From Succinivibrionaceae bacterium (lineage in GTDB: Bacteria; Pseudomonadota; Gammaproteobacteria; Enterobacterales; Succinivibrionaceae): 64,000 nt of DNA. Made by a program: the position numbers and the translations under genes. The notes under the pieces are model-generated. The model made no database searches. It saw only the letters and a list, made by a program, of their open reading frames with translations, and was not told the DNA's origin. The stretch covers positions 1 to 64,000 of the forward strand of contig JAEEOK010000018.1 in NCBI GenBank assembly GCA_016284235.1, given 5' to 3'. Positions 21,115 to 27,391 of the stretch are shown piece by piece. Each line of letters starts with the position of its first letter. Position 1 is the first letter of the stretch.

Positions 21115-23711
21115 TCAGCATCGATCGGAAGAAGTATCAAAGACTATTGAAAGCACAGAATAGTCCTCCTTCTCTACGCTGTTTTTCAAAATATCTTCAC
21201 TGATCCTTTTTCTCATTACGAGTTTTGCTGTACCGCTGCTGTGACTGACGTCGGCACTTACAACTCCGTCTATACCCTCGAGGATTTTTTTTACGAATTC
21301 TTCACAGTGAATGCACATCATTCCGTCAATACTCATGATGCACGTAAAATCTCTATTTTTTCCCGCCTCTGCCGAGCTGACAGCAGAAACAGGGGAATGT
21401 ATTTCCGCCCCGGCAATGCAGAAACAATCCGGTGCGTTCAGCTCGGTTTTCTGCCCGGAGAAGGCTTCGCCCTCCATATCCCGACTGTTCCTGCCTTGAA
21501 TTCCAATCAGATTCAGCCGCAAAGCATTCATCACCACGCAAAAGCTTGACAGACTCATGGCGCCGGCAGCTGTCACAGGACTCAGCTGCCAGCCGAGCCA
21601 GTGACTGAATACTCCCGCTGCAAGAGGTATTGCAGACACATTGTATATAAAGGCCCAGAAAAAATTTTCGTAAATATTGCGGAGTACGAGTCTGCTGATT
21701 CTTACTGCTGAATAAATATCAGTGATGCGGTTATGAAACAGAATGATATCGGCGGTATCTGCCGCTATATCCGTACCGGACTGCACTGATATACCTATGT
21801 CACTTGCCGCGAGAGCCGGAGCATCGTTAACGCCGTCGCCGGCCATTGCCGTAACCCCTGACTTTTTCAGTGATCTGACATACTCCGCCTTCTGCACAGG
21901 ATCAAGTTCTGCAATAATTTCATCAATGCCGGCCTTTCTTCCAACAGCGGAAGCCGTTACTGTATTATCCCCTGAGAGCATTACCACATTTACTCCGCTT
22001 TTTTTCAGAAGTTCAACGCCGTCTCTTGAATCATCTCTCAAAACATCGGCAATACCCATTATTCCAAGGAGTATTCCGTCCTCTGCAAAGAATACAGCGG
22101 TCTTTCCCTGTTTTACCAGTTCACTGAATTTGCTCTCAGCCTCTGCAGACAAACCGGTAAACCTTCTTATGAAACCGCTGTTTCCCGCAACTGTAAATCT
22201 TCCATTGATCCTGCCTGTGATACCGTTTCCCGGGTGGATCTTAATATCTGAAGCTTCATGAAGAACAGAGCCGCACTCTGATTCCAGAGCCTGAACAGCC
22301 CTGGCTACCGGATGCTCGCTGTAATGCTCCAGCGAACAGGCCGAAGTCAGAAGATAGTTCAATTCAACACCGCCGCACGGAACAATATCCGTTACGACCA
22401 TTTTTCCGCAGGTGAGAGTGCCAGTTTTATCCACTGCAAGATTCGAAATCCGGCAGGTTTTTTCCATAACCGCGGCGCTTTTAAAAATTATACCGCAGCG
22501 TGCCGCAACACCAGCTCCGACCATAACAGCAACCGGAGTTGCAAGACCGAGGGAACACGGACAGCTGATCACCAGCACCGATACTGCATATTTAAGCGCT
22601 GTACCTGGCTCTGCACCGATAATCACCCATATTAAAAAAGTAAGAAGTGACAGCAGCATTACTGCAGGAACAAAAACTCTGGCAATTCTGTCAGCAACTC
22701 TTTCTATCGGAGCTTTTGAAACAGAGGATTCAGCGACCAGTCTGATCAATTTTGAAAAAAGCGTGTCAGCGCCTGTTCCGGTGGCGCGACATTTGAGAAC
22801 CCCGTTAAAATTAACAGAAGCCGCTGAAACTCTGTCCCCCTTCTGCTTATCGGCGGGAATACTTTCCCCGGTAAGCGAGGACTCGTCCACACTGCTGGCA
22901 CCTTCAATAACAATACCGTCAGCGGGAAATATACCTCCGGGACGCACTATAAAGACATCACCGGCCGACAATTCATCAGCGGAAATTTCCACCTCTCTGT
23001 CTCCGCGCTGAACAACGGCAACCGCAGGACGCATATTCTGCAGCTGCCTGACTGCGGAAACAGTTTTATATCTGGCTCTTGCTTCAAGTACCCTGCCCAG
23101 AGTTACAAGAGTGAGGATCATTGCAGCGGACTCAAAATACATGCAGTCATCCATATGATCGGAAGCATGAAGAAATGCATCCGGCAGGAATATTCTGCAG
23201 CTCCATATAAAAGATGCAAGGGATCCCAGCGATACAAGAGTATTCATATCCGGAGCCAGTGAAAACAGGCTTTTAAAGCCACGGACAAAATAATCCCTGT
23301 TGACAGTCATTATCGCCAGGGTAAGAAACATCTCTGTCAGACCTTTCGTAAACGGCTCGTCAAACGCCGTCAGCCCTGGAAAAGAGAAAATCATCGTTCC
23401 CATGGAAACGTAAATGAGCGGAACAAGCAAAACTGCAGACAAAAGCAGTCTGAACAGCATTTTTCTGTATTCAGCATCACCTTTGCTGCAGGTCTTATCA
23501 TTATCAGCTGCCGCAGAAATAATCTCAGCACCGTACCCCGCCCTGCGGATCGCATCAGCAATCATTAGGGGATCCGCTTTTCCTTCCGCAGTTGCTGTTC
23601 CATCAAGCAGATTTACGGAGCATGAATCAACACCGTCAAGAGAAGATATGACCCTTTCAATTTTCTGTCTGCACACAGTGCAGCTCATTCCAGTAATTTT
23701 AAAATAATGCA
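21115..23711 (-). CDS. copA: Copper-translocating P-type ATPase with N- and C-terminal HMA domains
   Basis: GMSCTVC, SCPCSLGLATPVA, DKTGTLT, GDGVNDAPALA; C-terminal MCIHC HMA. Start placed at MHYFKITGMSC. Confidence 0.92.
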
Positions 23712-23828
23712 TAAAAAAACAAACTGTGATAGTTTTATCAACGGCAACCTGTAAAAAGTACGCAAAAAAGCGTAAAAAATCAAGATCTGACGCGCACATT
23801 AAAACGGAGTATCCTGATAGAATCAATC

Positions 23829-23992
23829 GCGGGGTGGCTTTGATGTCAATCAGGGTGACTCTTGGAGTTCACCATAAATAGAAGGACTTTAAACCGACGG
23901 CGCCGCGCCTGAAGTTTTCTTTTAAGACTAAACGACACATTGCCGTATCAGTGTCTGTTCTGTTATAAATCAGTTGTTTTAAGCCACCCCGC
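23829..23992. ncRNA. Candidate structured RNA element closed by a 12-bp inverted repeat, upstream of the RT gene
   Basis: GCGGGGTGGCTT (23829-23840) / AAGCCACCCCGC (23981-23992) perfect inverted repeat; internal hairpins GGTGACTC..GAGTTCACC, GGCG-CCG-CGCC, GACAC..GTGTC. Confidence 0.45.
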
Positions 23993-24731
23993 CCTTTAAA
24001 AATTCGCCAGGCAGGCAGTGAGGGATAGTAAACCGTTATTCAGATTGCCGCAAATCTGCAGTCTCAAATGCGTAAACGCAAAAAAAGAAAATAGCGAAGA
24101 AGGAATGGAGGAACACGGCATATGAGGCGCAGAGACTTGAACTCATCTATAACAACCGGTGTTAAACCAGTCTAAAAAAGCACTGAACAGTGCTAGAGGA
24201 ATATCAGATATAAAGGGCGAACAGCCCGCTGCCGATCAGAAATTCCGGCCGGCAAAGCCTCTGCACAGATCATTATAACCGCTTCGCTGCAATAGAAAAA
24301 CTTTTATTGAAAAGAAATCTAGAGAAGATTTCCGGCACTGATGTAAAAAGGCTGAAATGAGAATTTACAGAACTAATCAAATTTCTGCTGGAGAAATGAG
24401 CATCAGCAGAAGAATACGGTTTTGTGATAGAAATATCATTCTTAATTACTTTATTGGAAAGATTATCGACAAGACAGCAAACATTATTAAAATCGATCAT
24501 AGATTCTTTGGTTTTTGATTTATTTTAAATATATTTCATCTTTTTTGCTGTCAATCAGCAAATTCAGAAAATATTTAATCAGAACAGACATATATTTTCA
24601 TTTAAAAACTTACATCTTAAAATCTAAAGCGCGGTATAAACCGCTCATGACAGAGACTGTTAAAGCAGTCATGCCGGAATAGTACTGACGAACAGGGTTT
24701 TAATTTTTCTCAGAATGCAAGGAGAAGCTTC

Positions 24732-26786
24732 ATGGAGACCAGCACAGACATCAATTCAAATGAAGACCTGATTTCCAGATTTTTCAACAAAGACAGTCTT
24801 ATAGAAATGGTCTATGAAAAAATTGTCAGCAAAAAGCACTGTGCCATAGGTCTGGATGCCGCGGACAAAAATCATTTTATGAGATATCTCAATGACGAGA
24901 TTGATATAATCTTAAGAAAGATTTCTGACGGAAGCTACAAGTTCACACGCTACCGCATGATGCTAATCCCCAAGGGGCCTAAAAAAAATCCGAGAAGGAT
25001 CTGTGTTCCGACAATTCGCGATCGACTGGTAATAGCAGTAATTTCCCAGATACTGAAAAATAAGTTTGAATCAGCCAGAAGCAGACCGCGTCCTGATCAG
25101 GTGATCAGGCAGATTGTAAAAGAAAAAGGACGTTTCAGCACTTATATAAAGCTGGATCTTTCAACTTTCTATGCATCAATAAATCATAAACTTCTGCTGG
25201 ACAAGCTGAAAGTTATCGGGAACCCGACAGTTTTAAAGCTTATAGAAAGAGTAATCACGACCCCTGCCTATGATCCTGAAACTGATACCGAGTCAAAGAT
25301 TGAAACCGAAGCCAAACCGGGATCCCCTTCCGAACCGGTCGGCGTTCCCGAAGGTCTTTCCTGTTCTGGACTTCTTGCAGATATTTTTCTGGAAGATATA
25401 GACTGCAGATACGGAAAGCGTGAAGATATACGCTACTACAGATTTGTCGACGACATACTCATACTCTGCGATAAAGAAGAAGATGAAACCGAACAGCTGA
25501 AAAAACAGATCATAAGCGATCTGACAGCCAAAAAACTGATCATCAACCAGGAAAAAACCAAAACTTCGCAGCTTATCGACGGATTGAGTTATCTGGGCTA
25601 CACATTCTCCGGTGACTTCATCAGCGTGAGGAAGGAATCAATCCGCAAGCATGAGAAAGCCATTGAAGATATGGTTAAAAAATACGTCAAAAAAATCACC
25701 AACACCGACACTCTCTACAAAGCTGTCTACAGCAAGTACGAACTAGACAACAAGATATCCATGCTCTGTACAGGAGCAAATGTGGAAGATACATTCATGG
25801 GATGGATGTCATACTACCGTTACATAACAAATATGAAACTGCTGTATCATTTCGACTGGCTTATAACCAGCCTGTATAACAGATACAACATTCCCAAATA
25901 CTGCGGTAAAAGGCATGTGAGAGCATACCATGAATTAAACCGCAATATAAAAAATACAACCTATGTTTTCAAATACCGAAATTTAAAAGCCTACAACGAC
26001 TCTAAAAAGGATGAATTTCTGAAAACTGCAAGACAGTCTCTGAAATCAGGATGTGAAAAGTTGTCTGCAGCGGCAAAAACGATACATAAAACGGGCGGAA
26101 CAGGAGGTCTAATAAAATCATCAGATATAAAAGATCTGAAACTGCAAAACGAGTTAAAATTGAATAATAATCAGAAAGCTGTATTAAGCCTGGGACTTTC
26201 AAAATTTGTTTCCGTAAAAAATCATGACGAATATAACCGGATATCGATAAAAGCTGATTCAGATTTTTCGAACATATTAAGTACCTTTAAAAAGAAGAAC
26301 TGGCTGGAATTCAGTCAGAAGGAGATAGATATCCTGCTGAGCGGAATAACTCCAAAGACGGAAGCAGAAGAAAAATCGAATAAAAACAAGGACGACGCTG
26401 AAGAAAAATATGTCAGCAGGCATGATGAATCACTTCAGGACAGTACTGCAGAAACAGATGAAATGAATCAGAATGTAGAAATCACTGCAGCTGTAAATGA
26501 TACTGATGAAAATAACGAGAAACAGGGAGAAACCGATCAGCGTCAGGAAGAAAAAGATTTTGAAAAGCCGGACAATGAACAGCTGAAATCACAGCTGGCG
26601 AAGTATGCGCAGATAATAGAGAGAATCAGCAGGGAGAAAAACATACTGATTGATGATTATGCATTTTTATCAGGCATAGACAAAAACGGAGATATGACAC
26701 CTGAAGAAATTATCGATGCAATTATCGGAGAATTTCTGACAGATCCGATTATTGAAGAAGATCTCAAAACATTTGATTATGAATAA
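24732..26786 (+). CDS. Reverse transcriptase (RVT_1), UG/DRT- or group-II-like, with long charged C-terminal extension
   Basis: Motif A YIKLDLSTFYASINH, motif B GVPEGLSCSGLLADIFL, motif C RYYRFVDDILIL, motif D LIINQEKTKT...LSYLGYTF, thumb-like GWMSYYRYITNMKLLYHFDWLI. Confidence 0.93.
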   Translation: METSTDINSNEDLISRFFNKDSLIEMVYEKIVSKKHCAIGLDAADKNHFMRYLNDEIDIILRKISDGSYKFTRYRMMLIPKGPKKNPRRICVPTIRDRLVIAVISQILKNKFESARSRPRPDQVIRQIVKEKGRFSTYIKLDLSTFYASINHKLLLDKLKVIGNPTVLKLIERVITTPAYDPETDTESKIETEAKPGSPSEPVGVPEGLSCSGLLADIFLEDIDCRYGKREDIRYYRFVDDILILCDKEEDETEQLKKQIISDLTAKKLIINQEKTKTSQLIDGLSYLGYTFSGDFISVRKESIRKHEKAIEDMVKKYVKKITNTDTLYKAVYSKYELDNKISMLCTGANVEDTFMGWMSYYRYITNMKLLYHFDWLITSLYNRYNIPKYCGKRHVRAYHELNRNIKNTTYVFKYRNLKAYNDSKKDEFLKTARQSLKSGCEKLSAAAKTIHKTGGTGGLIKSSDIKDLKLQNELKLNNNQKAVLSLGLSKFVSVKNHDEYNRISIKADSDFSNILSTFKKKNWLEFSQKEIDILLSGITPKTEAEEKSNKNKDDAEEKYVSRHDESLQDSTAETDEMNQNVEITAAVNDTDENNEKQGETDQRQEEKDFEKPDNEQLKSQLAKYAQIIERISREKNILIDDYAFLSGIDKNGDMTPEEIIDAIIGEFLTDPIIEEDLKTFDYE

Positions 26787-26839: not shown

Positions 26840-26880
26840 AAAAACGCCTTCACCGCTCATACAGCTGTGAAGGCGTTTTT
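26840..26880. terminator. Bidirectional terminator between RT and the chemotaxis operon
   Basis: AAAAACGCCTTCAC...GTGAAGGCGTTTTT. Confidence 0.85.
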
Positions 26881-26917: not shown

Positions 26918-27391
26918 TCAGAGTTTGAGACCGCCTCCGTGAATCGATATCAAAAGCTTCGCCTCAGCCTCCGGAATTTCGCATTCATCCATGATCTCCT
27001 GAATAGAAGCACCTGACTTAACCATTTTCACAGCCCGGTTGTACATCTTCCCTTCCGGATCCTGGTACTGAACTTCATCATACTTCTGTTCCAGTTCTGA
27101 AACCTTGGATTCAAGATATTCACATCTGGACTGCAGATCTCCGATAAGCTGCTGAAATGTGCTCTGGGCAGTGCCGGCATCGGTTACAGCCTTACTGATA
27201 TAATCCCAGCGTCTTGCCTCACCCTTGAACTTACTGAGAATATCGGCAACTCCGTTCATATTGTCAGCAAGTTCCGAGTACGCCTGCTTCATGCTGCGTA
27301 TATAAAAATTCTGGTACAGCACCCAAACAAATAGGATCACCACTAATGTGGCGACCCCTATAAGTACATAAACGTAAATATCTGTATTCAT
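26918..27391 (-). CDS. DUF2802-type chemotaxis-associated protein
   Basis: N-terminal TM, coiled coil, C-terminal MVKSGASIQEIMDECEIPEAEAKLLISIH; adjacent to cheW as in Vibrio/Shewanella. Confidence 0.75.
   Translation of the reverse strand: MNTDIYVYVLIGVATLVVILFVWVLYQNFYIRSMKQAYSELADNMNGVADILSKFKGEARRWDYISKAVTDAGTAQSTFQQLIGDLQSRCEYLESKVSELEQKYDEVQYQDPEGKMYNRAVKMVKSGASIQEIMDECEIPEAEAKLLISIHGGGLKL

Follow-up and report, generated by a model that had tools for sequence, protein, structure and literature searches.

We analysed a 64,000-nt stretch from the draft genome of a gut bacterium of the Succinivibrionaceae (contig JAEEOK010000018.1, positions 1 to 64,000; the window in the following) and studied its reverse transcriptase (RT) gene at 24732-26786. 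A preliminary description, made from the nucleotide sequence, had proposed this gene as part of an undescribed RT system. We find instead that the RT is a member of UG17, i.e., of DRT10, and of no orphan class. In kind, it is thus a known system, here in an unstudied variant. A 2025 publication described UG17 under the name DRT10, a phage defence system formed by an RT, a non-coding RNA (ncRNA) and a SLATT protein, in which the RT synthesizes protein-primed tandem-repeat DNA via a telomerase-like mechanism and SLATT is reported to be necessary for immunity (PMC12632851). In the window, no SLATT gene is found beside the RT gene, and the RT carries a long linker followed by a conserved terminal motif. 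No description of this architecture was found in the literature searched. We favour, with some reservation, the reading that the locus is a DRT10 variant that does without SLATT and consists of two parts (ncRNA 23829-23992, RT 24732-26786), which would produce protein-linked tandem-repeat DNA for phage defence. Coordinates of all features are provided in Table 1.

The family assignment follows from profile scores and phylogeny. PADLOC's RT_UG17 model matches residues 10-435 with 346.6 bits (E=4.6e-104), while the next-best model reaches 128 bits and Drt3a 109 bits; the DRT9/UG28 model is absent among the 25 best families. For the phylogeny, we collected UG17-like RTs from GTDB genome contigs, viral contigs and plasmids (88 in total, UG17-like loci only). 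Here, the window RT is nested among SLATT-linked UG17 RTs, and the forks closest to it have support values of 92 and 99. Its open reading frame (ORF) starts with ATG, is uninterrupted by stops and matches RVT_1 with E=2e-26. Core motifs are found at residues 204 (GVPEGLSCSG), 238 (FVDD) and 357 (GWMSYYRYI), which confirms the intact gene with thumb-like segment described before. The FVDD motif, in contrast, had been considered unusual but is ordinary in this family, since FVDD/YVDD is the UG17 standard (YVDD in Eco3DRT10). The gene is present in one copy in the 2.94-Mb draft genome. Matching contigs place Succinimonas amylolytica and Ruminobacter in the same family, and S. amylolytica DSM 2873 (L065) is a cultured relative.

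A group II intron RT or group II-like (G2L) type RT is so improbable that this explanation can practically be neglected. Foldseek relates the modelled RT core to the group II intron RT 6ar1, besides DRT9 (9vma/9nlx) and DRT2 (9c0i); that is, the fold matches GsI-IIC RT as well as G2L4 RT, and there is a weak match to TIGR04416 (135.7 bits). The cut-off of that family is 300 bits, though, and the UG17 score is far higher, so that by score the gene falls with UG17 rather than with group II intron RTs. Furthermore, an Rfam search around the gene yields no family at all, group II intron RNA included. The preliminary description was thus right in seeing a UG/DRT-type rather than a mobile intron RT and in noting no ribozyme. 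Retron, diversity-generating retroelement and CRISPR RTs were rejected as well, given much lower scores and no partner or RNA.

Next to the family assignment, the missing SLATT gene distinguishes the locus. The window RT belongs to a clade of 7 Succinivibrionaceae loci (support 99), whose closest SLATT-keeping surroundings in the tree are DRT10s of gut Bacillota and Coriobacteria. With a profile derived from five SLATT proteins annotated on plasmids, we find a SLATT gene beside the RT in none of these 7 loci compared to 74/81 other UG17 loci. A search of the 7 whole genomes with PF18160 (Pfam SLATT_5), the sole SLATT family searched genome-wide, yields nothing over the cut-off. These counts speak against an ordinary tripartite DRT10 with a SLATT partner that is unlinked or too diverged for recognition, which we regard as quite unlikely. 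In favour of such a partner, the window genome is 91% complete, i.e., its assembly may lack the gene, the genome-wide search covered PF18160 alone, and the 739-nt interval from ncRNA to RT (23993-24731) is about as large as a SLATT gene plus spacers. On the other hand, that gap holds only short ORFs (none >75 aa), no family match and no detectable SLATT remnant, and the respective gaps of three relatives (190-250 nt) are too small for SLATT.

The remaining 7 SLATT-negative UG17 loci comprise L139 (cut by a contig end), the single L075 and a separate clade of five (L086, L095, L099, L106, L121; support 98; L121 cut at its 3' end). Hosts of this second clade are Sulfurimonas, Marinospirillum, Flavobacteriales and a gammaproteobacterial metagenome-assembled genome. 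Three of its RT tails read EDIEFY (L086), DDIEFY (L099) and EDVDFY (L106); in L106, an upstream loop resembling a template also contains the tandem ACAAAC-ACAAAC. No common partner gene was seen among the five. In other loci, SLATT is placed 3' rather than 5' of the RT (L077, L080, L084, L097, L102, L107, L109, L118, L119, L130, L133, L134, L151). Within viral contigs, UG17-type searches yield solely SLATT-linked or distant RTs.

The second distinguishing feature is the C-terminal extension. Typical UG17 RTs have a length of about 436-470 aa compared to 642-688 aa in the four complete long-form members of the clade. The long linker is found in 6/7 clade members (two of the six truncated at contig ends) and has no counterpart in typical SLATT-linked UG17 RTs. 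Among long-form relatives, the core and the last ~60-70 residues can be aligned; the linker separating them varies. The AlphaFold2 model of the window RT shows a confident core up to residue ~445, disorder for ~446-612 and a fairly confident ordered region 613-681 with helices at 615-635, 640-647, 657-669 and 672-680. A SLATT-linked UG17 RT modelled likewise is ordered almost to its end and lacks such a linker. The last ~270 aa had been described as low-complexity with a helical segment at the end. The model bears out the helical end; the low-complexity label applies to ~446-612, which is disordered and charged, but not to 613-684, which is conserved and helical. An apparent EF-hand near residues 647-660 was dropped because it is not conserved in relatives.

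DRT10 RTs end in LExDIxxxS or DxxxxGY motifs, with priming assigned to the terminal Ser456 in Eco3DRT10 and likely to Tyr444 in Eco1 (PMC12632851). We find this terminal motif in 74/81 other UG17 RTs and in 5/6 long-form clade members compared to 2.7% of interior 12-residue windows. The window RT, ending with EEDLKTFDYE, carries it too. Its D677 is invariant across 54 aligned RTs, and Tyr683 follows six residues later, a spacing also observed in the tyrosine-type tails of L058, L088 and L092. By analogy to the studied systems, Tyr683 is probably the primer of DNA synthesis. The seventh clade member (G001; L074/L026) is shorter (541 aa) and ends without the terminal motif.

We then considered the region upstream of the RT. 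The gene had been called solitary, which holds for proteins, since the ORF survey of its neighbours identified no co-directional partner gene next to it, but not for RNA. About 740 nt upstream and on the same strand, we find a structured element composed of a closing stem, a stacked hairpin (stem-loop SL1), a second hairpin (SL2), SL5 and a 25-nt loop running into the 3' strand of the stem. This is the layout of DRT10 template RNAs; SLATT-linked UG17 loci show the published arrangement (closing stem, hairpins, SL5, template loop) 5' of SLATT. The closing stem is equalled in 2/300 shuffles, the minimum free energy z-score of the plus strand is -3.79, and the element is the best-scoring such architecture within the 64-kb window. 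G011, G028 and G001 have elements of the same layout at a distance of 190-250 nt 5' of the RT (z=-5.16, -5.19 and -6.67), and the closing stems of G011 and G028 differ by a compensatory change from G-C to A-U. The RNA architecture is conserved in the clade. Over 316 kb, counted as strand sequence, a strict RNA descriptor produced 6 matches. Of these, 4 are upstream of the RT and run in its direction in four genomes; the odds here are inflated by thresholds chosen with the candidates already seen. An RNA element upstream of the RT is thus well supported. In the window, its strand is deduced from the relatives, and it probably serves as the RT's template.

Given its position, the element could also be the 5' leader of copA on the minus strand, with the RT using another RNA or none. 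Its distance to the copA start is 117 nt, i.e., it is nearer to copA than to the RT, and of its two strands the minus strand gives the better fold (z=-5.57). We nevertheless hold this explanation to be rather unlikely: the copA of a genome from the same genus (G004) has no such element within its ~0.27-kb upstream gap, and the same-layout elements are found 5' of the RT in three genomes without adjacent copA.

MAFFT alignment across ncRNA groups was unsuccessful and hence no broader covariance model was obtained. DNA similarity among the upstream regions within the family revealed nothing useful. A degenerate tRNA suspected by eye near 24120 was rejected, as neither ARAGORN nor Rfam reports one.

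In G004, copA directly adjoins the chemotaxis gene, and both the RT and the RNA element are absent between them; therefore, this site has seen either an insertion or a loss of the RT module. On the chemotaxis side, the flank of the window RT is also found in G002. Overall, the RT is found beside the chemotaxis operon in two species and beside tatD in three species of another genus, while most genomes of the family are without it. The long-form architecture occurs in three genera. When compared to G002, dN/dS (nonsynonymous to synonymous substitution rate ratio) is about 0.11 for the core, 0.33 for the linker and 0.27 for the tail, with dS near saturation.

These shared positions, together with purifying selection and a lost effector, would also fit a domesticated RT with a role outside defence, e.g., in stress response or genome maintenance. 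We deem this unlikely, since the patchy presence (flanks adjacent without RT in G004, most genomes of the family without it) is as expected for a dispensable defence module, and UG RTs characterised to date act in phage defence (PMC12632851). A decaying DRT10 relic, which has lost SLATT and is now losing its RT, appears improbable too. It would agree with the need for SLATT in studied DRT10 systems (PMC12632851) and with the distance between window ncRNA and RT. Nevertheless, catalytic motifs and reading frames are intact, the terminal motif is conserved, dN/dS is well under 1 in both core and tail, and the long form recurs in three genera. Pseudogenisation in relatives, which the preliminary description had named as an observation that would contradict its view, shows no sign in full-length relatives, and incomplete copies are cut by contig ends.

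Under the favoured reading of a two-part DRT10 variant, the RT would bind the ncRNA and copy a short template within the loop following SL5, by analogy with studied DRT10. Synthesis would be primed on a hydroxyl residue of the RT's own C-terminus, probably Tyr683, and repeated slip-back and re-annealing may yield long tandem-repeat single-stranded DNA covalently linked to the RT. The ~170-residue disordered linker may act as a tether between the polymerase core and the folded tail on which the priming residue lies. In the absence of SLATT, the product DNA would have to act alone or via an unlinked effector, as in DRT9. Possible A-B-A' repeats within the loops are TGTT-C-TGTT (window, 23956-23964), TTAAT-AG-TTAAT (G001) and GTAC-N4/5-GTAC (G028, G011), all short enough to occur by chance. 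If the window repeat is the right one, the DNA product would be a 5-nt GAACA repeat, read in any phase. A more specific, tentative idea is a self-sufficient DRT10 lineage, in which changes of the RT made SLATT dispensable; here, the priming residue would sit on the tethered folded tail, and the effector could be either the repeat DNA alone or this DNA together with the tail domain to which it is attached.

Beside the post hoc thresholds, the minus-strand fold and the shortness of the loop repeats, several observations weigh against the two-part DRT10 variant. First, no homology is detected when profiles of the entire C-terminal segment and of the usual DRT10 C-terminus are compared, such that the claim on the tail is based on the terminal motif and its position. 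Second, the covariance model R1, which was built from eight gammaproteobacterial DRT10 ncRNAs and recovers its own group plus a few others, gives no hit on the window element. Third, the distance between element and RT is ~740 nt in the window versus 190-250 nt in relatives. Furthermore, G029 yields no convincing RNA element, and the sequence of G002 is cut. The RT site is a housekeeping locus common to two species and no defence island. Finally, given that DRT10 defence reportedly depends on SLATT (PMC12632851), a SLATT-less form might not defend.

Compared to Eco1DRT10, Eco2DRT10 and Eco3DRT10 (PMC12632851), the window shares the RT family, the upstream ncRNA layout and the C-terminal priming motif, but differs in the SLATT gene missing beside the RT, in the longer RT with its disordered linker before the tail, and in an ncRNA too diverged for R1. 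For UG17, dependence on exonuclease I (sbcB) is reported (cited in PMC12483538). The nearest working analogy for a SLATT-free system may be DRT9 (UG28), which synthesizes poly-dA primed on a tail tyrosine, has a toxic DNA product and is only occasionally associated with SLATT (PMC12483538). RT plus upstream ncRNA layout, the Foldseek match and, putatively, C-terminal tyrosine priming are common to both, whereas the window RT is from a different UG group and no universal poly-U template is seen in its proposed loop. DRT3a (UG3) is likewise a class 2 UG RT with ncRNA-templated repeat synthesis (PMC13174585), but the window RT scores 109 bits there (347 for UG17) and no DRT3b partner is present. 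With the group II intron RT GsI-IIC, it shares the RT fold, yet intron RNA is missing and the score is under the family cut-off.

The main value of the locus is that DRT10 appears to operate in its lineage with no SLATT gene beside it. The leading idea on how the repeat DNA of DRT10 brings about immunity is control of the SLATT pore (PMC12632851). A natural lineage with RT, terminal motif and RNA element but no adjacent SLATT offers a direct test of the role of the repeat DNA: if ncRNA and RT suffice for defence, the effector can be the DNA itself or the tail of the RT. For protein priming in telomerase-like enzymes, the tethered tail would also be a natural experiment.

Table 1. Features of the RT locus (window positions; pLDDT: predicted local distance difference test score).
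Feature	Position	Strand	Basis
UG17/DRT10-type RT gene, 684 aa	24732..26786	+	ORF, RT_UG17 E=4.6e-104, tree
RT fingers/palm/thumb core, residues 7-445	24750..26066	+	pLDDT mostly 84-98; Foldseek matches
Catalytic motif C, FVDD, residues 238-241	25443..25454	+	VDD invariant across 54 UG17 RTs
Charged low-complexity linker, residues 446-612	26067..26567	+	predicted disordered, pLDDT about 29-56
Conserved C-terminal helical segment, residues 613-684, ending DPIIEEDLKTFDYE	26568..26783	+	conservation and structure model
Tyr683, proposed protein-priming residue	26778..26780	+	terminal Asp-to-Tyr spacing
Candidate template ncRNA, 164 nt	23829..23992	+ (from relatives)	12-bp perfect closing stem, fold z-score, descriptor
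Closing stem, 5' strand GCGGGGTGGCTT	23829..23840	+	
Closing stem, 3' strand AAGCCACCCCGC	23981..23992	+	
SL5-like hairpin GACAC...GTGTC directly before template loop	23934..23955	+	
Proposed template loop, 25 nt, TGTTCTGTTATAAATCAGTTGTTTT	23956..23980	+	position matches DRT10 template loop (PMC12632851)
Bidirectional terminator-like stem-loop AAAAACGCCTTCAC...GTGAAGGCGTTTTT	26840..26880	.	between RT and convergent chemotaxis operon

The direct neighbours of the RT gene are copA upstream (21115-23712, minus strand) and a motility/chemotaxis operon gene downstream (26918-27391, minus strand). This position, including the terminator-like stem-loop, agrees with what had been described.

Some further observations were made in genomes of the family. 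In Ruminobacter RUG10948 (L022:9856-18001), the RT adjoins a divergent type III CRISPR-like operon with Cas10/RAMP-like proteins (by eye from translation). In G001 (L026:6136-7799), the shorter UG17 relative is preceded by genes for an AAA ATPase and a shortened RloB-like protein; by eye, this arrangement has the look of a defence module. One genome of the family (G022; L012, L036) holds many near-identical RT copies, some of them broken, which are probably group II introns.
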